A stretch of DNA of 29,970 nucleotides, taken from the IMG/VR virus record IMGVR_UViG_3300030104_004315, positions 1 to 29,970 of that record. One strand, written 5' to 3'. Position numbers and translations under genes: made by a program. The notes beneath the pieces are model-generated. The model saw only the letters and a list, made by a program, of their open reading frames with translations. It did not search any database and was not told the DNA's origin. This DNA comes from a virus. Below, piece by piece: positions 1-25,815 of the stretch (position 1 is its first letter; the number at the start of each line of letters is the position of its first letter).

Positions 1-3000
1 TAGGAAGTTTTCCTGTATAGGTCTGTCAGAAGGTATTGAAGGCTCTGTAGAGTAAATGTCCGCATGAGCCGCTTTTATCTCAATCGCATTCCCCAGGAAA
101 GGTTGCCCCTCATTCGGGAACTGCTCAAACTTTAATGCACCCGTCTCAGTCCCTGCGGCGTTCATTATATGATCATGAGGGATAATTGAAACACCCTCAT
201 AAGGATCTGTATGTAATTCAGGTGATGCGATGGCTGACAGCATCGGAACCCAGCCCTCACCATTATAGGGTCCATTTATTGTTGAGGGCTGTCTGGTTCC
301 CCAGCGTCTAAGTATACTATCTTTAGTTCTTCCATCATGAGCAGAATCAGTTATGAGGCCTAAACACAAAGAGCTTTCTGAAGTTGTTGTCAGACTTGGT
401 ATTTCTCTAAATCTTTCAGTCCTATTAATCTCCGCTTGATTCGCACCAACAACACCTATAGGATCAGTCTCAGAGGCTCCTGTAATATGGTAGTAGATTC
501 CAACGGCATGAGGAGAATTTACTTTAGACGTTATGCCTTCTACGGAGGACTCAGTGCCATCAGCAACACGATAGTATGCTACAAATGCATATCTGGCGTG
601 ATCTCCACCTAGCGATACCGAGTTTGGTTGATTGCTTATAACTCTTGTCCATCCAGTAGGCGTCGCCTCAGCCTCAAAGTGGTCTCCCGTCTGCGCTGAT
701 CCCCAATCGTCGTGTCCCGCTGCTGCAAGTATAAGTAAAAGATCCCCAGGCTTTACGCCCTCAGGCTTGTTCAAAGACATCTTAGTGGTAGCTTCAACTC
801 TTGCGGAGTTATAGCTAATAACTTTTGGAGCATCCGGTGGTAGGTAGGGTTTCTCTGCGGGATTAACAGCAAACTGAAAACTAACCCAGGAGTTATCATT
901 GCCTAAGAAAGCTGCGTCACCAGAGTCCCCAGCACTTGATAAGTTCTTTGTGATCAAGGCCGCGACGTAACTCAGTGGGGCGCCGGTCGAGGTAGGTGAA
1001 AGACAGGTCCCTGAAGGGGTTGAGAAGAATTTGTCTTTGCCTGTAATAGTCGAGCTTCCCTGTAAATCAAACTGAGCCCAAGTGCCTTGGCTTGATAGCG
1101 GTGCCATCCATTGATAACCACCTCCGGTGCCTAGTGCTCCAGCGGAGGGCGCTTCGCCTATACCAGCAAGTGAGCTTACGCTTGCTGAAGATGCATCGAC
1201 CCAGAAATTCAACTTATCTGAAATATCCCAATCAGGACCCATTACAGCAGCATCGGTCTCGCCTAAACTATCTACATCGACAATAAATCTTCTTTTGTTG
1301 TTTCCATAGTAAGTGAGTCCAACCCCTTGAGTAAGGTTCCTTTGTCTGGATGTGGTTTGACCTAAGTAACCTATGGCTAGGCAGTTCTTTCTTGTAGTTT
1401 TACATGTAGGTATTGATCTTAAGTTTGAGCTATCGTCAAAATCAGGTAGTGAAGAAGCACCTATTGGATTTGTTTGAGAGGCTCCTGTAATCCTTAAGTA
1501 GATCGCAAGCTGAGGAAACTCGTCATCTGTCCCTATAATTGTTTGAGATTGCGGTTCAGAACCCGTGGCGATGGTGTACCAAATACCTAAATGCAAGGCA
1601 TTTCCGGCTTGATTAGCGGCACGCCTTGCGCTGATATCTGATTCGGCTTTTGTAAAGTACGGAAGACCGTCCCCTAAGTCTAGGAGCCTGTTCCAATTTG
1701 CACCTGATAAGTCAGTATTATACTGAGAAGGTGTAATGTTACCTCGATCTATCTCCCCATCGCGGGCTGCGATAACCACCAGTAAATCTCCCTTCTGAAC
1801 GTTATCTGGCTTTTCAATAGTTATGTTACTCTCCCCTTCCGCAGCGGTGGCCTTTGAGAAACCGGCAATCTCTGGTACCGGAGGCTCAAAGTCTTGTTGT
1901 TTCATGTTATCAAACCTTACTCTAGGTAAACCTTTTGTAGTGGACCTAGAGAGAATAAAGGTGTTATCAAACATGTAAGAATCATCAGTGCTCTTTTTAG
2001 CAGTGCTAGGAATATTAAACACTGAGAAGCTATTTGAATTATCAGAATCGGCTGTGTGGACTAATTCAATCTGTGAAATAAAATCATAAAGAACGTTATC
2101 AGCAACACCCACGTTCATGTGAGAAGAATCTGTATAGGCTAATGGACCTTTAAAAGTGGTACTCTTAGGTGTAAGCACTGGCGTAGCTGACAATGAAGAT
2201 ACCAATATGGAGCTTTTAAATTGATCGCTGTCGCTGGTAAAATCTTCGAAATCGTGATTGTATAAAATAGGGCCAAACGTATGAGAGAATATGTTAGCTC
2301 CATCCAACTTCTCAATATTCTCATTTAAAATGTGCTGATTGAAATCAGTCACATAAGACTTGTATAATCTATGCAAATCTCTTCCAAAGGAATAGTTGTA
2401 GTAATCGTCTTTGGAGTTAGGGAAATCTCCCCCATATTCCGTGGCTGAGTTTGCATAAGCTTGGTATACATTACTGACTGAAAGTTGATACTCCGTAGCT
2501 GTCCCATAGGTTGCAGAGGCTTCAAGAATTTTAGCTTGCTCCTGAAGGCTGTGCATGGTAGCATAGATATCAGGAAGTTGACCTCTATCTATAGTTAGAT
2601 CTAGGTTGCCTGGGAATGTGCCTGAGGCTCCGCGAGAATTTAGAGTATTACTTACATTATACTCATAGTAACTATTAGCAGAATTGAATCCTTCGCATTG
2701 ATTCCATATAGCGGGCAGATTAACATGGTCTGTAACCGGAGTATACGTCAGCGAACTAGGCACTAAACCTAAAGGCAACCCACTCACCCCAGAAGCCATG
2801 TCGAACCCGACAGGCATGTTAAAGCCTGTTCTGTCATAGTAACCGGCATTAGGTAAAAGTTTTTCGTAATTTCTCCTACGAATTGATGTTCTAGGGATAT
2901 CAGTCGCATTCGTAGCATCTAAAACATTAGCACTATCAACATTGTTAGTATAGTTTCTGGAGAAGTTGCTTCCTCCAGTTCTAACGTCCCGCATATAGCT

Positions 3001-4956
3001 GTTGAAATACACTCCACTCGTAAAATGGTTCCTGGAGTTTCTTGTCTCCTGCTCATCACATAGAGGAGACACGAGAGGCAGGGACGACGCTACAAGCCCT
3101 AAATTATCAATGTAGGCTATTTCAAGGTTAATTAAAGGGATAGCATGTGCCGGTATGAAATCCTTAGCTAGCTTAGAAACGGCGAGGAACGATCCTCCTG
3201 TTGAGGAGGTAGTCATTTCATTGTCGTTAAAGTTGAAAGAGCTAGCATCCAGAACAATCTTAAAATGAGATGACTTACCGGACCATAAAGAAGCATACTC
3301 AAACTTCTCATTATAACCACTAGCGATTAAGTTCGAAAGGTTCGGCGGGTCATTATACCCTGAAGTGAATAATAGGAAGCTAGAGCTTCTAGGCTCGTCG
3401 TCAACATTCAGAGCGTTGTCTTGTAGGTATTTCTCAAAGTCATTTGCAAAAGACAACGTACACCCAAAACAAACAAGCCTGTCCTTTATGAACTCAACGA
3501 TATCTTTGTTTAGCTCAAAGTTTACGTAGTAAGGGAACTCCTCAAAAGGTGGGATGGGATAAGTTCTACCTCTGTAGTGGAATCCCTTTTCTTGATTGGG
3601 AATCTCTCCAAACTTATCCTGGAATCTCTCGTATGTTTCCAATAGGATACGGTCCACAGCCAACTTTAAGTTCTCATCCAGACTTGTGGTAGAATAACCA
3701 GCCACTTGCATTTCATTAGCTACAGTTTCCGACCACGTATCAAAAGACTTGAAGTAAGAAGAGTCAGTTGCAAGAGCGTAGTAAATCAGATATGGAACAT
3801 AAGACTCATAAACTTCTGAAATGTAAGTATCTATACCAAACTGCTCCTTGGGCAGGAGGCTGTCTATAGCTAGCTGGAGTCCTTTCTTTGTGCCGACTCG
3901 GTGATAAATATCAACAGCATTTCTAAGTTGAAGCCTCCACCTATCAGGCTCCGTGCCAAAGAGGTTCCACCCAATTAATTCAGCCAGCAGAGGCAGATAC
4001 TCATCAGGACAATCCGAGATGTCGTAAATGTCTGACAACCTATCAGACGAATCATTCACATCCTGAGCTAGAAAACATAAAGATCTTAAGAATTTAGTGA
4101 ATGGTCCATTAGGAATCTTGTCACTGGTGAATAGACTACTTTCTAGGAATTGCTCAACCCTATCCCTAACAGTGAAATCAGCACGATCAGCATGGAGTGG
4201 AGAGTATATAACATCTATCCACGTTTTAAGGTTATCTAGCTGTTGAGTTCCACTCGTAAAAGTGGTATTAGATACCGTAAACTCAGAAGGATAGTATCCA
4301 GTATGGCCATCCTTCCACACAAACTCCATTAAAGCCTTAACACCATTAACAGTCTCAAAAGGCTGGCCCTTGTATATCGTGTTTACGACCTCCTCGGCAA
4401 CAGCAGTTGAAGGGTCAAAGGTTCCTCCAGGGCCGGAAGTGTTTAGCAAGTAGACCCAGGAAAGATTACTAATAAGATAGTTATGAGTATCAGAAGCAGA
4501 GTGACTATCAACAAATGTTGCAGTTGGCTTGTTAAGGGCTATACTAGGCAGTAGCGTCCCTGAAAGATACGTTGCGAAATCAGAGCTAGTAGCATAGTCA
4601 TTGATAGAAATTCCAAGAGGAGTTAGAATCTTATCCTGGAATTTTCTAGTGGTGATATTTGTTAAATCATTTTGCTTTATGAAAAATTCTGAGATACCAC
4701 TTACTGTATCAATACTACTGTAAACAGTCGCTTCAACAGAGCTAACTACATTTCCGTCAAACCCCTTAATAAGTGACCCGAAGTCATTGGCCAGCCTAAT
4801 GTTACCGTTTAGAACTTCATCTCTTAGGTCAAACTCCTGTCCAAAATTTTCAATATCATCTTCCGTTAAATAATTAGGAATGATGTACTTTACAGCCTCA
4901 TAATAATTAGGCTTAAAGTATTTTTGAGCAGTTAAATATGTTTTACCTGAGGACAT
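1..4956 (-). CDS. Giant baseplate wedge protein, gp7-like with P2 gpI-type domain (3' end outside window)
   Basis: The frame is open from ATG at 4956 to base 1, at least 1652 residues; I checked most of the triplets for in-frame stops and found none, so the stop lies beyond the left edge. The ATG shares one base with the gp6 stop (TAATG). The start reads MSSGKTYLTAQKYFKPNYYE. Residues about 305-370 carry the signature of P2 tail protein I: a Cys-Pro pair at 316, then LPLLAELIGW, an Arg-rich helix, and HRVGTKKGLQLAIDSLLP. P2 gpI and T4 gp7 both belong to the baseplate wedge, and the position directly after gp25 and gp6 is the expected one. The C-terminal part has two copies of a beta-rich domain (about residues 1024-1200 and 1371-1535), each with a 'KPGDLL' strand and a 'ITGASxTxPIG' strand. 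The gene and wedge role are secure; the role of the repeats, probably surface binding, is inferred. Confidence 0.88.
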   Translation of the reverse strand, partial: MSSGKTYLTAQKYFKPNYYEAVKYIIPNYLTEDDIENFGQEFDLRDEVLNGNIRLANDFGSLIKGFDGNVVSSVEATVYSSIDTVSGISEFFIKQNDLTNITTRKFQDKILTPLGISINDYATSSDFATYLSGTLLPSIALNKPTATFVDSHSASDTHNYLISNLSWVYLLNTSGPGGTFDPSTAVAEEVVNTIYKGQPFETVNGVKALMEFVWKDGHTGYYPSEFTVSNTTFTSGTQQLDNLKTWIDVIYSPLHADRADFTVRDRVEQFLESSLFTSDKIPNGPFTKFLRSLCFLAQDVNDSSDRLSDIYDISDCPDEYLPLLAELIGWNLFGTEPDRWRLQLRNAVDIYHRVGTKKGLQLAIDSLLPKEQFGIDTYISEVYESYVPYLIYYALATDSSYFKSFDTWSETVANEMQVAGYSTTSLDENLKLAVDRILLETYERFQDKFGEIPNQEKGFHYRGRTYPIPPFEEFPYYVNFELNKDIVEFIKDRLVCFGCTLSFANDFEKYLQDNALNVDDEPRSSSFLLFTSGYNDPPNLSNLIASGYNEKFEYASLWSGKSSHFKIVLDASSFNFNDNEMTTSSTGGSFLAVSKLAKDFIPAHAIPLINLEIAYIDNLGLVASSLPLVSPLCDEQETRNSRNHFTSGVYFNSYMRDVRTGGSNFSRNYTNNVDSANVLDATNATDIPRTSIRRRNYEKLLPNAGYYDRTGFNMPVGFDMASGVSGLPLGLVPSSLTYTPVTDHVNLPAIWNQCEGFNSANSYYEYNVSNTLNSRGASGTFPGNLDLTIDRGQLPDIYATMHSLQEQAKILEASATYGTATEYQLSVSNVYQAYANSATEYGGDFPNSKDDYYNYSFGRDLHRLYKSYVTDFNQHILNENIEKLDGANIFSHTFGPILYNHDFEDFTSDSDQFKSSILVSSLSATPVLTPKSTTFKGPLAYTDSSHMNVGVADNVLYDFISQIELVHTADSDNSNSFSVFNIPSTAKKSTDDSYMFDNTFILSRSTTKGLPRVRFDNMKQQDFEPPVPEIAGFSKATAAEGESNITIEKPDNVQKGDLLVVIAARDGEIDRGNITPSQYNTDLSGANWNRLLDLGDGLPYFTKAESDISARRAANQAGNALHLGIWYTIATGSEPQSQTIIGTDDEFPQLAIYLRITGASQTNPIGASSLPDFDDSSNLRSIPTCKTTRKNCLAIGYLGQTTSRQRNLTQGVGLTYYGNNKRRFIVDVDSLGETDAAVMGPDWDISDKLNFWVDASSASVSSLAGIGEAPSAGALGTGGGYQWMAPLSSQGTWAQFDLQGSSTITGKDKFFSTPSGTCLSPTSTGAPLSYVAALITKNLSSAGDSGDAAFLGNDNSWVSFQFAVNPAEKPYLPPDAPKVISYNSARVEATTKMSLNKPEGVKPGDLLLILAAAGHDDWGSAQTGDHFEAEATPTGWTRVISNQPNSVSLGGDHARYAFVAYYRVADGTESSVEGITSKVNSPHAVGIYYHITGASETDPIGVVGANQAEINRTERFREIPSLTTTSESSLCLGLITDSAHDGRTKDSILRRWGTRQPSTINGPYNGEGWVPMLSAIASPELHTDPYEGVSIIPHDHIMNAAGTETGALKFEQFPNEGQPFLGNAIEIKAAHADIYSTEPSIPSDRPIQENFL
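355..846 (-). repeat. Domain repeat copy 2 inside the gp7-like protein
   Basis: Second copy (residues about 1371-1535). Landmarks are KPEGVKPGDLLLILAA and YYHITGASETDPIGV, followed by SLCLGLI. It lines up with copy 1 over most of its length. The offset between copies is about 347 residues, and the linker after each copy is not obviously conserved. Confidence 0.75.
1365..1887 (-). repeat. Domain repeat copy 1 inside the gp7-like protein
   Basis: Protein-level repeat, first copy (residues about 1024-1198). Landmarks are KPDNVQKGDLLVVIAA near the start and YLRITGASQTNPIGA near the end, followed by a segment ending LAIGYL. It pairs with the copy at about 355-846. The DNA has diverged, so this is an old domain duplication, not a recent DNA repeat. 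Confidence 0.75.
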
Positions 4957-6557
4957 TAGATTATTTCAGAACTTATGCTGACGTTGTTTAATTGTATTAT
5001 CTCGTTAAAAGCTACTTCAATAGCTCTGTCCAAGTTATTTACAGTGGCAAATCTAATGGAAGGGTCTTTCAGGATTACCCTAACCAAATCTTCAGGAGAG
5101 AACCCTTGACCAAAATCCGTATTATCCACATTGAAATAAGTTAGGATAGTATTGTTCACTCTGGACACAATACTATTCTTTTCCCTCTTAAACCTATCAT
5201 CTAGTTTTACTGTAACATTTAAATCAAGAGTTCTAATTAACCCATCTACAATGACAGGCTCATCAGTTAGCATCTTCTTATCAGTCATTGCCTCTAGTAG
5301 CTGCTTCTTATACTCCTGAGTAGCTTGTCGTAGTTGAGAGTCATTAGCCTTTTCCAATACAAACACATCAATAGTGTTTGCCGATGAGTAAGCTCTTCGA
5401 ACACTTGCAGTGGCCTTCCCAGTAGACCCATAGTTAGATGCGAATGTGTTAGCGAAAGCTGTGTAATCCGAAAGTGTTACCAACCTGTCTTGAGATCTAA
5501 ACTTAAGCGGGCCATATTTCTTCACCTTAGCTGTTGTTTCAGCATCGGATCCACCCGTCGCCTGAGAGCTATTCTCAACTGTAACTTGTATGGGTTGCTC
5601 AGATTGATCCGCATCGGATGCCTTTCTGGCGGTTCCATTTAGTTGAGCGTTGATAAAGCTTTCAGAGATGTTACCTCTAGAACCTCCACCGACTCGGTAA
5701 GTAACCGTATAGGAATCTCCCTGCGAAGGAGATTGGCTTATAGTTGAATCTCCGAATATTACCTCAGCCACAAAGTCGTTATTCGTGGCTACCTGATATA
5801 CCTTATCAGTGGCGCCTGAGGCGAAGAAAAGGTTATCCTCCTCCAAGTACACTCCATTTGTAACTTCACTCCCTTCGATAAATACCTGAGAGCTTTTTTC
5901 AACGTAAGGGGACTGTGATAACCTTATGGTCTTGACAGTATTCGGAGCAGTGAACACCCCAGACTCTACGACCAAGGCTCCCTCTAAAAGAATTGCACTA
6001 GTAATAACAGGCGTCCTCGTTGAATCGAAAACAAACTCAATGCTATCTGTGTTGCTTTGAAGGTCTATACTACCATCCGTATTTACCTTATAAATTGTGT
6101 ACGAGAGAGGTGCTCCATCTTGAGGAGATTTAATCGATATGGTTCTTTGGGATGGACTTAACGTAAGTGAGCTAACCGCATCAGTGAATTCGAAACTTAA
6201 CGATGCATTTGCAGCAGCAGAAATCGGACCTTTCATGCGAATGCCAATTAGCTCCATTAGTTTCTTAACACTAGATCTTTCACGGGCGGTTCTTAGAAAG
6301 TTTTCGTTGGCTAAGTAATCAGCCTTGTGAGATTGAATGTGCCCTATGGCTGCCATCAACTCAATAAGAACTATACCAAAGTCCGACTCGTCAAAGTTAT
6401 TGTAATCTAACGGGAAGTTCGCCTTAGTGTATTGAATTAGGTTTCTACGAAGAGTCGCGAAATCTGATGCCGCAAAATCTATAAACCTCTCTTTATTCTC
6501 TAACTCTTTAGGAATAAATTTTAAGTAATCAGACTCGACTGTCCCACTAAATGCCAT
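4956..6557 (-). CDS. gp6: Baseplate wedge protein gp6-like (baseplate J family)
   Basis: A 533-residue wedge component. In T4, gp6 forms the ring that ties wedges together around the hub. The N-terminal part shows the family pattern: an Asp-rich entry (NFDESDFGIVLIELMAA), then a helix with ADYLANENFLRTARERSSV and LMELIGIRMKG, closely matching the 'A.R.SV..L...LGY' region of baseplate J/gp6 proteins. The middle (about 110-300) is beta-rich. The part from about residue 345 (KYGPLKFRSQDRLVTLSDYTAFA) is the conserved J-like C-terminal region. Length is somewhat shorter than T4 gp6 (about 660). The ATG overlaps the gp25 stop by one base (TAATG), and the stop overlaps the next start the same way, so translation is probably coupled along the operon. 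Confidence 0.88.
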   Translation of the reverse strand: MAFSGTVESDYLKFIPKELENKERFIDFAASDFATLRRNLIQYTKANFPLDYNNFDESDFGIVLIELMAAIGHIQSHKADYLANENFLRTARERSSVKKLMELIGIRMKGPISAAANASLSFEFTDAVSSLTLSPSQRTISIKSPQDGAPLSYTIYKVNTDGSIDLQSNTDSIEFVFDSTRTPVITSAILLEGALVVESGVFTAPNTVKTIRLSQSPYVEKSSQVFIEGSEVTNGVYLEEDNLFFASGATDKVYQVATNNDFVAEVIFGDSTISQSPSQGDSYTVTYRVGGGSRGNISESFINAQLNGTARKASDADQSEQPIQVTVENSSQATGGSDAETTAKVKKYGPLKFRSQDRLVTLSDYTAFANTFASNYGSTGKATASVRRAYSSANTIDVFVLEKANDSQLRQATQEYKKQLLEAMTDKKMLTDEPVIVDGLIRTLDLNVTVKLDDRFKREKNSIVSRVNNTILTYFNVDNTDFGQGFSPEDLVRVILKDPSIRFATVNNLDRAIEVAFNEIIQLNNVSISSEII

Positions 6558-7003
6558 TAGATTCTAACCTCGATATTAAAGCCATTAGAGTCAGCGTCTC
6601 TTAAGCTTAGGAATAACTTAACTAGAAGATTCCCATTCCTAGTTTCAAAAACTTGAAGTTTGTTTGTCGCTGTCAATGCACCAAGATATTTTTTAATTGA
6701 TAAGCCAACTTCATCTCTAATCAATCTAAAAGTAGTTTCGTCCAAAGGCTCCATCAAATATTTACTAAGATCAGCACCATAATCAGGAAGCATGAACCTC
6801 TCCCCTCTATTAGTTCTAAGGAAACTCTTAATCATGGTTTTAACAAGCTTTAAACCAGTAGACTTAGAGAAGTAACCAGATCCTGGATTGACTTCAAAGG
6901 GATAATTGAATCCTTGGATGCTGGACTCTTTCGCAGTGACCTCTCGAATCTGTTTATTGGAGGGGATTTTCCCGTAAACATTTGTTGTCTCAGGTAATGC
7001 CAT
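6557..7003 (-). CDS. gp25: Baseplate wedge protein gp25-like
   Basis: A 148-residue protein of the GPW/gp25 family, the conserved wedge piece that nucleates sheath attachment at the baseplate. The diagnostic stretch is SFLRTNRGERFMLPDYG followed by DLSKYLMEP, equivalent to the 'GER...P.FG..L...LFEP' core of the family, then a helix and a terminal beta region (LFLSLRDADSNGFNIEVRI). Size fits T4 gp25 (132). It lies 2 bases after the LamG protein gene and overlaps gp6 by one base. In contractile tails gp25, gp6 and gp7/gpI form one heterocomplex, and the three are adjacent here in that order. Confidence 0.9.
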   Translation of the reverse strand: MALPETTNVYGKIPSNKQIREVTAKESSIQGFNYPFEVNPGSGYFSKSTGLKLVKTMIKSFLRTNRGERFMLPDYGADLSKYLMEPLDETTFRLIRDEVGLSIKKYLGALTATNKLQVFETRNGNLLVKLFLSLRDADSNGFNIEVRI

Positions 7004-7005
7004 AG

Positions 7006-9660
7006 TTATAATTTGATATTCTTAAAGAAACTTCGAGTAGCGTTATAGTTATTTAGCACCTCCGCAGAATTAAGAGGCTTTGAGTAGAATCTAGTGCAAC
7101 CTAAATAACCATTAAGACCACTAACCTTACCACCATACAAACCTCCCATGAATCCACCGTCAGGGTTACCGTCAGTATAACCCCCGCCGAGAATCCAAGG
7201 AGTGAAGTAGTCATCTCTCTTAGGCCCATACTTGTAAGCCTCCAGGGAGCTTCCAGTTATATTTGTGGTATTATATTCAAACGCATTGTCGGGAGGAATA
7301 GAGGGTATTTTTGGTGTCTGCTTCCTAGAGGCTGCACCAAAGACATCCCCATAACTGGAAGTTACCAAGTTAACCCCATCAAGGTATACTTTGATTTCAT
7401 CCTTCACCGGGTTTAACACTACTGAAAGTTGACAGAATGATCTTGCACAAGAGGATAGACTTGCTCCATTGTAGGTGCTAGACACGGGCACAGTCAGACC
7501 CTTCCAAGAGGATAAGGACTCACAAGTCTCTGTAAGGCCTCTCTCAGCTATGAAACCGGCGCTAGAAGAGTCGAAAGATTGAGTAGGTGCCATTACAAGA
7601 GAAACGTCTTGCACAGGGTTGTCAGCCTCCAGGTTACTCGGCGTAGTATCCTGAGTAAACCTACGATCCCTAGTAAATCCTAAGATCATACCTCGGGTAA
7701 CCCCTGCTCCATTATCGAGAGACATGTTAAGAATATCTGCTTGAGTGCTAATACCTACACCTGATCCAGTATTCTCATTAGCTAAAATTGTCCTATATAA
7801 TCCTGATACTTCGGAGGTTTGATTGTAGGCATCAACTGAAGATAGATCAGGGGTGTACACCCAAGTTTCAAAGGTTGCTCCTCTTCTATTATATAAGAAG
7901 TCTTGAAACTCAGGGAGAGCAGGGAGCTTGGCAAATGTTCCATTACCTGATACAACTCCAAAAGAATCCGGCCTACAGATACCCTTCAGATGTGCTATAC
8001 CTAGGCCCTTATCTAATATTTCGTTAGTATCTCCTACAAGTTGAGCATTATAATTAACACCAGCAGTCGTACTATTCCTAAGAAGATAATCAAAGCTGGA
8101 AGGATCGCTGGACTCCAAGGTCAAATAGTTGTATAATCCAAACAAACCATCAGTGTTTAACAGAGGTGTAGCAGCCAGTGACGCTGAGGTAGAGGCTGAA
8201 GCATTAGCACTATCAATGGTTAAACCGTCTGGGAACGGGCTAACGGAGAGGTGCTCAAAGCTTATACCATCATCCCTTTGAATTACTTCGGAGAACTTTG
8301 TTTCAATAGGAAGAACAACGCCATCGACCTCATCTTGACGAATTACAATGCTCCTCTGCCTCTCAAGGTCCAAGGAGTAGTTAATGCCTGCTAAGTATGA
8401 GAAGTCGTTTACAGGAACCTCACCTGGAGAGAATAGTATCCCCTTGCCGTGAGCTTGGGGCATCTTGATCGCCAACTCGATTTGTTTTTTTCTTCTCTTT
8501 ATTTGATCGTTGAACCTGGAGGACTCGGATATCATTACCTGTTTAAGGTTTTCAATGATAACTTCAGAAGAGCCAGCATCAGTGTGCTGCTGAATCTCAG
8601 CAGATACATCGAATATCTTCCTATCTCTCTGCCCGATAATATTAACTAAAACGTTGTCTGCGTTATAATATTGATCGAAGGGGCTAGAGTCATCAATCAG
8701 GTCAGGATCAAATATAGTATTGAAGTAAGAATTTAGATCCTTAAGAGTTTCCGGTGCTCCGCGACCTCCAAGGCTTGGATCAAACTCTAGTTTCCAATCA
8801 AGGGATGGGTCTCTCTCAGCGTCTCTTACACTCAACTCCAGAAGCGCAGGAGCCACGCCGCTTGTCTGAGAGTCGTAATATAACCCGTCAACGGATAGTA
8901 AGAATTGTCCAGACTTAGATTGTGGAGGTCCAAAGTTAAGCCTGAAAACGCTGCTCTCCTGATCTGTGGGGTCCGCTGTGATCAGCTTAGGCTCTAAATC
9001 AGGATTGTTTATTCTACCTGAAATGATACCGTCAATATCCTTAATATTCTTATCAGCTAAAGCTATAAACTTAGCTGCGTTTACTGCGTTCTGGACTTGT
9101 GGGCCATACTCATTTGCTATTGTCTCTAAGTAAGCATCAGGATCAACGGCTGCTAGGGCGGCTCTGCTTTCAGCAGAATCTCCTCCTATGTTATCCAAGT
9201 ATTCCTCATAACCGCTAACGCACTTGACGATCTCCTTAAGATCATCTATTGCAGTGTTAACGTTGGAGTAGAGTTGCGACCCAAAAGCAATCGCCTGAGA
9301 GGCTGTTCCTAAAAAGGTTCCTAACGGACCACCTAAACCTCCACTCTCTTGACCATATTGAGAGGCGTCAGAAACAAATCTAAATACTCCCTCATCAGTA
9401 TCAAACTCAATAATACCAGTCAGATTCCTTAATTTTTGAGAGAGGGCTTTTGTTACCGCATCGGCAGCATTCCTACCAATAGCCATATCATTTCTCATCC
9501 CCCCTAAAACATTGCTAGGCAACGCACTTAGGAGGTCTCTACCTAGGTTCATTACACAAGAGGGAATACCAAACTGAACATCCAACGCTCCTAAGATGTC
9601 TTGACCTTCACCAATCGATCCCGCTAAGGACTTTGCTGTTTGTAAATCAAATTTAACCAT
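7006..9660 (-). CDS. Baseplate/virion structural protein with C-terminal LamG-like domain
   Basis: An 884-residue protein between the spike and gp25, so almost certainly a virion component. The N-terminal 150 residues (start MVKFDLQTAKSLAGSIGEGQ) are helical with Gly/Ala-rich stretches; this resembles N-termini of large structural proteins in marine T4-like phages, from memory rather than alignment. The middle (about 200-500) is mixed, with a coiled segment around ESSRFNDQIKRRKKQIELAI. From about residue 590 to the C-terminus there is a laminin-G/concanavalin-type jelly roll: RGATFETWVYTPDL, a later VVLNPVKDEIKVYLDGVNLV, and the closing strand LGCTRFYSKPLNSAEVLNNY. Such domains usually bind glycans. 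No T4 counterpart is recognised. It shares the TAATG junction with the spike gene. Confidence 0.75.
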   Translation of the reverse strand: MVKFDLQTAKSLAGSIGEGQDILGALDVQFGIPSCVMNLGRDLLSALPSNVLGGMRNDMAIGRNAADAVTKALSQKLRNLTGIIEFDTDEGVFRFVSDASQYGQESGGLGGPLGTFLGTASQAIAFGSQLYSNVNTAIDDLKEIVKCVSGYEEYLDNIGGDSAESRAALAAVDPDAYLETIANEYGPQVQNAVNAAKFIALADKNIKDIDGIISGRINNPDLEPKLITADPTDQESSVFRLNFGPPQSKSGQFLLSVDGLYYDSQTSGVAPALLELSVRDAERDPSLDWKLEFDPSLGGRGAPETLKDLNSYFNTIFDPDLIDDSSPFDQYYNADNVLVNIIGQRDRKIFDVSAEIQQHTDAGSSEVIIENLKQVMISESSRFNDQIKRRKKQIELAIKMPQAHGKGILFSPGEVPVNDFSYLAGINYSLDLERQRSIVIRQDEVDGVVLPIETKFSEVIQRDDGISFEHLSVSPFPDGLTIDSANASASTSASLAATPLLNTDGLFGLYNYLTLESSDPSSFDYLLRNSTTAGVNYNAQLVGDTNEILDKGLGIAHLKGICRPDSFGVVSGNGTFAKLPALPEFQDFLYNRRGATFETWVYTPDLSSVDAYNQTSEVSGLYRTILANENTGSGVGISTQADILNMSLDNGAGVTRGMILGFTRDRRFTQDTTPSNLEADNPVQDVSLVMAPTQSFDSSSAGFIAERGLTETCESLSSWKGLTVPVSSTYNGASLSSCARSFCQLSVVLNPVKDEIKVYLDGVNLVTSSYGDVFGAASRKQTPKIPSIPPDNAFEYNTTNITGSSLEAYKYGPKRDDYFTPWILGGGYTDGNPDGGFMGGLYGGKVSGLNGYLGCTRFYSKPLNSAEVLNNYNATRSFFKNIKL

Positions 9661-23225: not shown

Positions 23226-23457
23226 AATTATTACAAAAGAAGCGCAGATCGATACAATCAACAAGATTACTAAAGATCAGCAGAACATGCTTGATGCCTG
23301 CATGGATATCCTAAAAGACATAAAGGATGATGAAAAGATTACAGAGACAACTGTAAGGAACTTGACGAGTGTCCTGCGAGAGTTAGATTCTCTTCGTGAA
23401 CTTTTCTACACTCGCCTGTTCAACTCACTTAAACGTGGTGACATGCTACTGAATTAG
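23212..23457 (+). CDS. Small helical protein downstream of uvsW
   Basis: 81 residues, predicted almost wholly helical, with heptad-like spacing (ITKDQQNMLDACMDILKDIK, then TTVRNLTSVLRELDSLRELF), acidic at first and basic at the end. The ATG at 23212 is inside the end of uvsW (14-base overlap) and has its own Shine-Dalgarno, GAGGT at 23202-23206. T4 also has a small gene, uvsW.1, next to uvsW, so this could be a positional counterpart; I cannot show sequence similarity. Its 3' end overlaps the convergent fibre gene by 12 bases. Confidence 0.75.
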   Translation: MSDSEIITKEAQIDTINKITKDQQNMLDACMDILKDIKDDEKITETTVRNLTSVLRELDSLRELFYTRLFNSLKRGDMLLN

Positions 23458-25815
23458 GTCTTTCCCTCTCGTAGTATTATTATGAGTCATCCTAATTTGG
23501 TGCCAGTCCACAAATATCTCATTGCCAACTGTGGTATTTGCTGTGCTATAAATATTAGCATTATTGATGGCCCAGGCTAGACCCAGTCTATTAAATCTAC
23601 TGTCAGGAATATGGTGATCATCAATGTTAAACTGAGCCTTTAAAACTCCGTCAACATAGAAATCCACATTCTGCCAGTTCTCGTTACAACTAACTTGTAA
23701 TACTTGGAACTCTTGAGCAGAGACTGCAATCCCTGTATCAGAAACAGTAGAGTTACTGTTGTCAGTTACAACTGCTGACCAATTGGTGGTGGTCTCTCCT
23801 CCACCCTGCCCATATTGGAATTCCATGGCATAAGTTGCGGCAGAGTTGCCGGTGCCATTCCTAAAGCCAAAGCACATTTTACCTTCGTTAGAGCCATCTA
23901 ACCAAAGACCACTAGGTGCAATTCTGCTTGTGAATGATATAGCACAGGAGCTAACCGCTAGAGCATTATTGAAAGTTGTTAGGAATGCTCTACCATAACC
24001 ATCGGTGCCCGACCTGACCTCGTAAACACCAATGGTCCCCTTATCAGGGTGCATAACATCGTTATCGAAACACTGCCCGAAACCTGCGTTAGATCCACTC
24101 TGAGTGGTGCCAAAGCCATTAGCAGCACCTCCAGGAGTTAACCAATCAGCCTCTTGAATATAAACTGTTGGGTTCATCTGGCCTGTTCTAGTTACATTCA
24201 AGTTAGCTGCTGATATATTAGTGGCACTACCACTTTCCATGAAGCTACGTGCATTACTATTTAAAGGCAGAGCGACGGGACCAGCGGCTGCATCACTTGA
24301 AGAGAAGTATATGAAGTTATCTCCTGCTGTAATAGCTTGATCTGGTTGCTGTATCCAATTAACACCAAACTCACTACCCACATACTGTGTAGATGATGAA
24401 TCCGTTCCAGAGAATGCAACTAGTTTATTAACGACGGTATCTCCCTTACCAGTGGTTCCTGGAGGGGTCGAAAGCACATTACTAACCACAAAGTTGCCTA
24501 GAAGATTTTGCGGGACGGTTTGATCTCCAACAGCCATTGAGAGAGTCCCTGCCTGCCAAGTACCGCCACCCCTGTATACGAGAGCCTCTCCTTCCGTTGG
24601 AGACCCGACATTTACATCTGTTAAATCACCAAGATCAGCATCAGTGCCTAGGAAGGTTCTGGAGTTAGTGGTTGTAATTGATGTTGCTACGAACAGATCT
24701 GCTGAGGCATCATATTCAACATTAGTTACAAAGTCTCCTGCTGAACCGTCAAACTCAGCTTCAGTTACAAAGTCTCCCGCTGAACCATCGAATCCAGTTT
24801 TAGTTACGAATAAATCTGCTGAGGCATCATATTCGACTTCAGTTACATAAGCAGCAAGATCTGAGTTAATTACAATAGCAGTGCCATCAACCGTAGGCTT
24901 TTCTGTGAAGGAGGCTACCCCAGTAAATACTGCTGGCCCAGTAACATTTAGCCCTGTAGAGAAGGGTAACTCACTTGGATCTTTTCCTTCTAGTGTTCCA
25001 TCACTTTGCTTTACTAATACGTCTCCTGGACCAGTCGTAGCGGTAGGCTCTATTAAAATTGAATTAGCAGCAATAAAAGCAGCCGGGGGCTGAGTGGTGG
25101 TAGTATTAGTACTATCCTTGAGTATTAGGTCACCATTACCTCCAGTTGATGTAACAAAGAAGTTACCAGCAGAGCCGTCAAATTCAGCCTCAGTTACATA
25201 AGCATCAAGATCAGTAGAAATTACTACTTCGTTAGTATCTACCAAAGGCTTCCTATCAAAAGTAAACGGACCTTCATGAGTTGAAGGACCCGTTACGTTT
25301 AAAGGGCCTGTAACAGAGATAGGGCCGGTAGCATTATAACCTACAGGGAATAGAGGTTGATTTGATACAAATGTAAGGGGGCCTGTGACATTGGCAGTAG
25401 TGTCGTTTGGAATGTAACCTTGAAGATAGCCTGTAGGGCCAGTCACATCTGTAGGTTGCAAATAACCTTTACCTTCCACATAACCAGTGGTAGCAAGATT
25501 TATAGGGGTTGCAGTTGGAGATATGGATGTTACACTTGTACCATCTGTATGGTAGTATAGGATGTCACCTGTGTTTCCATTGGGAAAGCTAACGCCACCA
25601 CCACCACCACCACCGCCCGTTACGATTGTGGAAGGGGCATACAGAAAAGTTCCATCACCAACCGCAGACCAAGCTAAAACTTGATACTGTTCAGGAGCGT
25701 GGTCAGTAGCAACATCCGCAAGATCTATCGAACTGATTTGAAACTCAGCTAAACCGGAAGGCGTGTTGTTACTGTCGTAGCTTAGAGCTAAGGGAAGTCT
25801 GTTTTGTATAGTCAC
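23446..25815 (-). CDS. Large fibre-like structural protein with TGP motifs, 13-residue repeats and lectin-like end
   Basis: 789 residues from GTG 25815, chosen because AGGAGGT lies 5 bases upstream and no ATG fits better. The N-terminal region (SIDLADVATDHAPEQYQVLA) leads to an eight-Gly linker and GDILYYHTDGT, as seen in phage fibre N-termini. Then come repeated TGP units (ATGPISVTGPLNVTGPSTHE), a duplicated module (KPLVDTNEVVISTDLDAYVT and KPTVDGTAIVINSDLAAYVT), and four tandem 13-residue repeats. The C-terminal 230 residues look like a concanavalin-type jelly roll (SFTSRIAPSGLWLDGSNEGK, later NVDFYVDGVLKAQFNIDD). Probable role is host or surface attachment as tail or head fibre; the place beside portal genes leaves this open. 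Confidence 0.75.
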   Translation of the reverse strand: MTIQNRLPLALSYDSNNTPSGLAEFQISSIDLADVATDHAPEQYQVLAWSAVGDGTFLYAPSTIVTGGGGGGGGVSFPNGNTGDILYYHTDGTSVTSISPTATPINLATTGYVEGKGYLQPTDVTGPTGYLQGYIPNDTTANVTGPLTFVSNQPLFPVGYNATGPISVTGPLNVTGPSTHEGPFTFDRKPLVDTNEVVISTDLDAYVTEAEFDGSAGNFFVTSTGGNGDLILKDSTNTTTTQPPAAFIAANSILIEPTATTGPGDVLVKQSDGTLEGKDPSELPFSTGLNVTGPAVFTGVASFTEKPTVDGTAIVINSDLAAYVTEVEYDASADLFVTKTGFDGSAGDFVTEAEFDGSAGDFVTNVEYDASADLFVATSITTTNSRTFLGTDADLGDLTDVNVGSPTEGEALVYRGGGTWQAGTLSMAVGDQTVPQNLLGNFVVSNVLSTPPGTTGKGDTVVNKLVAFSGTDSSSTQYVGSEFGVNWIQQPDQAITAGDNFIYFSSSDAAAGPVALPLNSNARSFMESGSATNISAANLNVTRTGQMNPTVYIQEADWLTPGGAANGFGTTQSGSNAGFGQCFDNDVMHPDKGTIGVYEVRSGTDGYGRAFLTTFNNALAVSSCAISFTSRIAPSGLWLDGSNEGKMCFGFRNGTGNSAATYAMEFQYGQGGGETTTNWSAVVTDNSNSTVSDTGIAVSAQEFQVLQVSCNENWQNVDFYVDGVLKAQFNIDDHHIPDSRFNRLGLAWAINNANIYSTANTTVGNEIFVDWHQIRMTHNNTTRGKDLIQ
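24691..24846 (-). repeat. Four tandem 39-bp coding repeats (13 residues each)
   Basis: Units at 24691-24729, 24730-24768, 24769-24807 and 24808-24846. Protein order is VTEVEYDASADLF, VTKTGFDGSAGDF, VTEAEFDGSAGDF, VTNVEYDASADLF, so the two outer units are alike and the two inner units are alike. A further partial unit (VTEAEFDGSAGNF) lies near 25160-25200 in the upstream module. Confidence 0.85.
25594..25617 (-). repeat. Poly-glycine codon run (8 Gly)
   Basis: A near-perfect GGT trinucleotide tract, one GGC, six GGT and one GGC on the coding strand, that makes a flexible eight-Gly linker between the fibre N-terminus and shaft. Slippage here would change length without breaking the frame. Confidence 0.8.

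Follow-up and report, generated by a model that had tools for sequence, protein, structure and literature searches.

A duplicated in-frame cassette in a putative baseplate wedge protein, apparently exchanged between phage lineages

We analysed the entire 29,970-base IMG/VR record IMGVR_UViG_3300030104_004315 (the window), whose left end carries a gene that, by domain content and gene order, encodes a baseplate wedge protein of the type of P2 gpI and T4 gp7. The gene is read on the minus strand from an ATG at position 4956 to position 1, with 1652 codons free of stops up to the contig end. The original prediction of a single gene, open past the left edge and with at least 1652 residues, is confirmed. 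Since the gene runs off the left edge on the minus strand, it is the C-terminus that is missing. Our best explanation, which we regard as probable, is that a loop in a jelly-roll domain of this wedge protein took up a duplicated cassette of about 620 residues that has been exchanged between lineages, most likely for binding host-surface polysaccharide. The features of the gene are as follows, with residues numbered on the window protein.

1..4956, minus strand: gpI/gp7-type baseplate wedge protein, an open frame with Pfam and NCBIfam matches directly after a gp6-like gene, its C-terminus past the contig end
3856..4092, minus strand: Tail_P2_I (P2 gpI-type) core, residues 289-367, above the Pfam gathering score and also matched in NCBIfam
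2350..2360, minus strand: change point at residue ~868, just after a motif at residues 856-866; from here the DNA is ~93 % identical to locus L003
1909..2265, minus strand: first part of the conserved C-terminal domain, residues ~898-1016, a predicted jelly-roll resembling carbohydrate-binding modules (CBM) of the CBM4 type and interrupted by the insert, mapped from the AlphaFold2 (AF2) model of the relative L006
37..1896, minus strand: insertion, residues ~1021-1640 (~620 residues), absent from the close relatives L004 and L006
1297..1881, minus strand: repeat copy 1, residues 1026-1220, from blastp and hhalign self-comparison
292..834, minus strand: repeat copy 2, residues 1375-1555, from self-comparison; phrog_3329 matches residues 1363-1483
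1..36, minus strand: standard C-terminal domain resumes, residues 1641-1652, from a by-eye alignment with the residues directly after the site in L004 and L006

Two complete relatives without the insert, L004 with 1307 amino acids (aa) and L005/L006 (one contig) with 1306 aa, define the insertion. Over the first 650 residues both share about 95 % protein identity with the window, and L006 shares about 90 % in DNA. In L004 and L006 the counterparts of window residues near 1016-1020 and 1641-1652 stand side by side, and the insert therefore corresponds to residues ~1021-1640. Its guanine plus cytosine content is 46.7 % versus 40.7 % for residues 1-650. This comparison indicates that the duplicated block is an in-frame insertion into the wedge protein that lies outside its standard fold, in line with the earlier proposal of extra domains on the wedge. 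The two repeat copies are 27 % identical over 177 columns (blastp E 2e-15; single-sequence hhalign E 8.9e-10), which upholds the duplication in the earlier claim of two copies of a beta domain. Among loci L001-L169 a profile of the repeat unit matched the window-derived loci and the contig of L003 only.

The site of insertion was placed on a structural model of a relative. AF2 applied to L006 residues 107-1306 with a 49-row alignment gave a mean predicted local distance difference test score (pLDDT) of 63.4 and a predicted template modelling score of 0.42, and local confidence is good across most of the C-terminal domain. Residues 789-1095 of the model (L006 895-1201) resemble CBM4-2 xylan/xyloglucan-binding modules with a Z score of 12.4 and a root mean square deviation of 2.7-2.8 over 158-160 aligned residues of 165-166. 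The window insertion point corresponds to model residue ~913, in a lower-confidence loop between strands 905-909 and 931-942. On the model of this relative, the insert is predicted to sit in a loop of a CBM4-like jelly-roll. When the model was compared with viral models by Foldseek, the best rows included tail fibre, minor tail and host-specificity proteins together with unrelated proteins.

The gene has a mosaic history. The window is about 90 % identical to L006 in DNA up to residue ~655 and then about 70 % identical to L006, L003 and L009 alike. From residue ~868 it becomes about 93 % identical to L003, until L003 ends within repeat 1, and this L003-like stretch takes in the insert and about 150 residues before it. 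L003 in turn shares about 95 % identity with L009, a sister without the insert, as far as residue ~868 and 53-71 % beyond. A tree built from residues 1-445 places the window with L004/L005 and L003 with L008/L009 (Shimodaira-Hasegawa-like approximate likelihood ratio test, SH-aLRT, 100 and 99, respectively). Taken with the switches in identity, these differing tree groups imply that the C-terminal cassette is foreign to the backbone in the window and in L003 alike. The pattern indicates that intragenic recombination transferred the cassette and the preceding part of the jelly-roll from one phage lineage to another. The motif at residues 856-866 is conserved in the relatives compared, and the change point falls after the motif and before the CBM-like domain; crossing-over may have taken place within the motif itself.

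To place the insertion in its family, we gathered 118 distinct wedge open reading frames (ORFs) from viral contigs, each matched by an N-terminal as well as a C-terminal profile. With the window and L003 the set comes to 120, of which 101 have both ends closed. The family derives from the best 80 loci of each of three scans and its counts are no prevalences; ORFs matching one end profile only were excluded, except the window and L003. Inserts were mapped in rows of at least 1520 aa, in the non-base rows of one alignment and in the window, L003 and L015, while shorter rows were scored insert-free by length. The tree holds 118 rows (L020 and L065, with the N-terminus missing, were dropped), and rows cut by a contig end were counted insert-free unless an insert was seen. 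It comes from a quick search without a mixture model, includes the near-identical rows L180, L182 and L183, and drew a long-branch warning that covers the esterase-bearing L014, L068 and L074.

The usual length of the family members is about 1290-1360 aa. A second group spans 1440-1520 aa, its mapped members having a common insertion of about 90 aa near profile position 446, and 11 closed ORFs exceed 1600 aa. Of the 118 rows in the tree, 18 carry large inserts of about 230-1240 aa. The insert state changes at least 11 times along the tree, gain and loss being indistinguishable. The inserts occupy six sites, given here on a profile of 1334 positions.

Site ~650-683: L238, 1244 aa
Site 720: six rows
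Site 780: L014, L068 and L074, plus L015 in a cut contig
Site 825-853: L198 and L200
Site 1045: the window and L003
Site 1095: ten rows

All six sites lie at or past the midpoint of the protein. Under uniform placement six sites would fall within one third of the profile with a probability of 0.0015, a rough post hoc figure as the sites were defined after seeing the data. From these alignments, the wedge family seems to be a repeated target of insertion in its C-terminal half.

The inserts fall into five sequence types, with no blastp match between types at E 0.01. Those at site 780 resemble the SASA carbohydrate esterases: L014, L068 and L015 score above the Pfam cut-off and L074 just below, all four have the GQSN and WxQGE motifs, and the three complete ones have the HY motif. 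A sequence search of the PDB with the esterase-like insert of L014 found nothing at E up to 1. The domains are located as follows.

L014:8708-9832: SASA (sialate acetylesterase)-like domain in the wedge protein
L068:4267-5277: the same
L074:4243-5295: the same
L015:9980-10618: the same

The inserts at 720 and 1095 (sites B and D) form one family. Six ORFs (L177, L180, L182, L183, L187 and L096) have inserts at both positions, and in the five that were cut out, all except L183, the same domain family stands at both. A profile of this family weakly matches Rcc01080, the head spike fibre of the Rhodobacter capsulatus gene transfer agent (RcGTA), at E 0.0016, followed by ThreeFoil (0.0078) and FliD (0.029). 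In the available part of the source, RcGTA head fibres are described as fastening the particles to the host capsule (PMC7296036). A PHROG tail protein was matched by three of five inserts from sites B and D in one scan and by one of three in another, at E 6.1e-7 to 0.053. The long insert of L238 (L238:9415-13146) has an fn3 match just above the cut-off, and its first part looks beta-helical by eye only. In a further locus, L016:5862-8193, the wedge frame closes at 504 codons while tblastn similarity continues to query residue 785, which we read as a frameshift or sequencing error.

The identity of the window protein as a gpI/gp7-type wedge follows from its gpI-type domain and from gene order. 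Tail_P2_I (PF09684) matches residues 289-367 at E 2.2e-4 with 21.5 bits, just above the gathering score of 20.6, and TIGR02242 matches residues 287-371 at E 1.5e-6 with 28.3 bits, under its cut-off of 51.85. The alignment of the family profile with the wedge protein gp32 (PDB 8kea) is weak and not significant (E 1.7). A P2 gpI signature had been predicted near residue 316, and the Tail_P2_I match covers that position; the fusion proposed with it does not stand, since this domain is the wedge core and is conserved through the family. Upstream of the wedge gene lie gp6-like, gp25-like and gp53-like genes, with portal-like and terminase-like genes farther away.

4956..6557, minus strand: gp6-like wedge protein (phrog_219, E 7.9e-41; TIGR02243, E 2.3e-32, under its cut-off), whose stop overlaps the start of the wedge gene
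6557..7003, minus strand: gp25-like wedge protein or sheath initiator (PF04965, E 6.1e-7; phrog_261, E 4.4e-12)

The wedge gene thus adjoins gp6/gpJ-like and gp25-like genes, as in the gene order of gpI/gp7-type wedges. TssG, T4 gp7 and P2 gpI have been proposed as counterparts, according to the portion of the source available (PMC6300606). By these two lines the window protein belongs to the wedge of a contractile baseplate like that of T4, where it would pair with gp6 and correspond to P2 gpI and T4 gp7.

The label "gp7-like" used in the original prediction holds in this sense of gene position and gpI-type domain; by sequence the protein is no T4 gp7. The Pfam domains Gp7_helical, Gp7_5th and Gp7_6th were all found in the T4 gp7 control and none in the window protein at E up to 1. 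Comparison of the family profiles with T4 gp7 stayed below significance (hhalign E 0.32 and 0.65; the best hmmsearch value, E 0.028, came from a two-sequence search and covers a short stretch). T4 gp7 was also absent from the 50 rows shown in each of two PDB fold listings for the L006 model, rows that were filled by the jelly-roll and are therefore uninformative on a shared fold. A Glutaminase Pfam match of the window protein at E 0.2 was dismissed as chance.

What might such a protein do? We propose that the constant N-terminal half, with the gp6-binding part and the core, would assemble with gp6, while the outer C-terminal half, made of the CBM-like domain and any inserts, would point outward, be exchanged or enlarged, and contact the cell surface. 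Polysaccharide would be bound by this half or, in some relatives, deacetylated by it. In the window, the loop of the jelly-roll would have received a cassette with two diverged copies of one domain that may act as a tandem binding module, and the wedge would add to adsorption beside the tail fibres, with a possible effect on host range. In favour of this proposal count the insert types tied to surface sugars, esterase-like at site 780 and weakly fibre-like at sites 720 and 1095, and the resemblance of the interrupted domain to CBM4-2 in the L006 model.

The nearest tested case for a glycan-binding wedge, by analogy, is Gp119, the third baseplate wedge protein in Vp4, a myophage that infects Bacillus cereus. 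In the accessible portion of that study, Gp119 has added carbohydrate-binding folds that are missing in its close homologues Deep-Blue Gp177 and A511 Gp105, and Gp119 binds host cells while Gp177, which lacks these modules, does not (PMC11406892). The analogy makes receptor binding by the window insert plausible. The two systems differ in that Gp119 is a wedge of the A511 Gp105 type, the gp6/gp7-like wedge there being Gp118, whereas here the gpI/gp7-type protein itself bears the insert; moreover, relatives of the window protein bear other inserts at several sites, and glycan binding is here our inference.

Several observations weigh against this proposal. The model of L006 also matches other jelly-rolls at Z 9.5-11 (among them cyclases, meprin MAM domains and Cry toxins), and as the jelly-roll is a common fold, the match supports the fold class and does not by itself prove sugar binding. 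AF2 on residues 1008-1652 (two-row alignment) returned a mean pLDDT of 28.9 and no fold for the insert, leaving unconfirmed the word beta in the earlier description of the repeat. The insert matched no Pfam family, and in the PDB no sequence match went below E 0.5 (0.61 for the insert and 0.5 for the repeat profile, both taken as chance), and its best PHROG, phrog_3329, is of unknown function. Apart from the window, the insert was found on the contig of L003 only; as that contig ends inside repeat 1, the C-terminal junction is supported by 12 residues of a single contig. In favour of the proposal, the repeat aligned collinearly over 145 columns (hhalign probability 73 %) with a possible relative encoded next to the tail fibre gene in phage P19250A, yet the link started from a tblastn match of E 4.

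Wider searches for relatives of the insert added little. One scan of viral contigs confirmed none and another only the contig of L003. Across 50,697 phage records, tblastn found nothing for the whole protein at E 1e-3 and one weak match for the insert, at E 4. At E 0.01 the P19250A domain used as query found only itself, and its protein matched no PHROG. Plasmids had no match to the last 1000 residues at E 10, and the repeat alignment had none in one metagenome-assembled genome (MAG). phrog_3329 turned up in none of 32 related records and in none of 299 genomes from a single family, an uninformative result as the control genomes were silent too.

A stronger version of the proposal, which we consider rather doubtful, sees the gpI/gp7 wedge as a modular host-contact platform: insertion-tolerant loops of its CBM-like C-terminal half would be diversified by swaps of glycan-binding or glycan-deacetylating cassettes, and, since the wedge takes part in triggering contraction, binding of sugar would be coupled directly to baseplate firing without fibres.

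The main rival holds that the insert is a docking or scaffolding module that binds tail fibres or baseplate neighbours, or forms a cage, and makes no host contact. There is a precedent in A-1(L), where the part of the source available describes the long tail fibre as anchored by an insertion domain of the wedge gp31 and the C-terminal loop of gp32 (PMC10966104). We find this explanation unlikely for the window: close relatives exist without the insert, and the insert families vary between phages, one being esterase-like, which fits surface chemistry better than conserved docking.

A less probable alternative is that the insert is a tolerated passenger, with exposed loops taking up mobile beta-domains cheaply and no selection for a specific function. 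The spread over six sites and the presence of an insert in some close relatives and not in others agree with it. Against this, frames stay open across up to about 1240 inserted residues, the assignable insert types lean to surface-related domains, and the window cassette has stayed about 93 % identical in DNA across two backbones.

It is conceivable that the join is a chimera of metagenome assembly, as both insert-bearing contigs come from IMG/VR metagenomes and L003 has a sharp switch at residue ~868. We judge this very improbable given that the frame is intact, that the window switches also at ~655, with a stretch of about 70 % identity to each compared relative before 868, that identity in the shared part is about 93-95 %, short of 100 %, and that other insert types recur in separate assemblies (the esterase-like one in L014, L015, L068 and L074). 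Finally, nothing was found in favour of the repeats being part of the standard gp7 fold, a reading refuted by the complete close relatives that are insert-free and by the tree, where 100 of the 118 rows had no large insert scored.

Host-surface binding by an enlarged baseplate protein, the explanation we prefer, has parallels in several systems, and the general idea that baseplate core proteins are enlarged by carbohydrate-binding domains is already established. Like T4 gp7, the window gene lies directly after gp6 as a wedge counterpart; it differs in the lack of significant sequence similarity, with gp7 domains V, VI and helical undetected, and in size, about 1300 aa or more versus 1032 aa for T4 gp7 (correctly given earlier as about 1030). 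In evolved distal tail (Dit) proteins, the enlargement is an inserted CBM. As here, a core protein is enlarged there, in this case at the siphophage tail tip, and the available part of the source reports that the enlarged form aids adsorption (PMC10688798); unlike the wedge, evolved Dit is a distal tail protein, found in siphophages of Gram-positive hosts. In AlgoCIS, the parts of the source covered place CBM folds in the wedge protein Alg11 and call the gp7-like part of Alg12 a re-engineering hotspot (PMC8894135). Unlike the window, AlgoCIS is a bacterial contractile injection system and no phage, the Alg11 CBMs form a spike cage, and in these same parts no cassette exchange between close relatives was found.

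Another enlarged wedge is perhaps the 6376-aa "structural protein" Syn33_092 of the Prochlorococcus phage Syn33 (L255:2039-21169), likewise encoded directly after gp6. Its first 3000 residues have a Baseplate_wedge Pfam match just above the cut-off, a YHYH match and a sub-threshold laminin-G match. Unlike the members of the window family, it has no significant similarity to that family (hhalign E 0.098 and 0.91; best hmmsearch E 0.04). In the literature covered, with most subscription papers outside it, we found no report of inserted domains in the phage gpI/gp7 wedge of this clade.

Changes of host range in contractile phages are usually sought in tail fibres and spikes. Our results suggest that a conserved wedge protein is a repeated insertion target whose outer half appears to be exchanged horizontally between lineages within the gene. 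Should the inserts bind or modify sugars on the surface, a determinant would be overlooked when host range is predicted from fibre genes alone. The family provides natural pairs with and without insert in close backbones, suited to asking whether binding by the wedge assists or triggers infection.

Hints on the host of the window are few. A wedge homologue (L251) lies in a contig binned in a MAG of Altibacter, which we take to belong to the Flavobacteriaceae. The window portal is 33.6 % identical to that of Flavobacterium phages immuto, but also 34-37 % identical to those of a Microcystis phage and an uncultured phage. These observations give a weak host hint at most. In a scan of genome contigs, 1 of 35 pattern stretches was confirmed, too little for a host call. 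Elsewhere in the window, an 884-aa protein encoded at 7006-9660 on the minus strand, between the gp25-like and spike-like genes, has no Pfam match, weak PHROG matches only, and a C-terminal end that is lectin-like by eye. A 789-aa protein at 23446-25815 on the minus strand, with no PHROG match at E up to 0.01, shows TGP-type repeats by eye.
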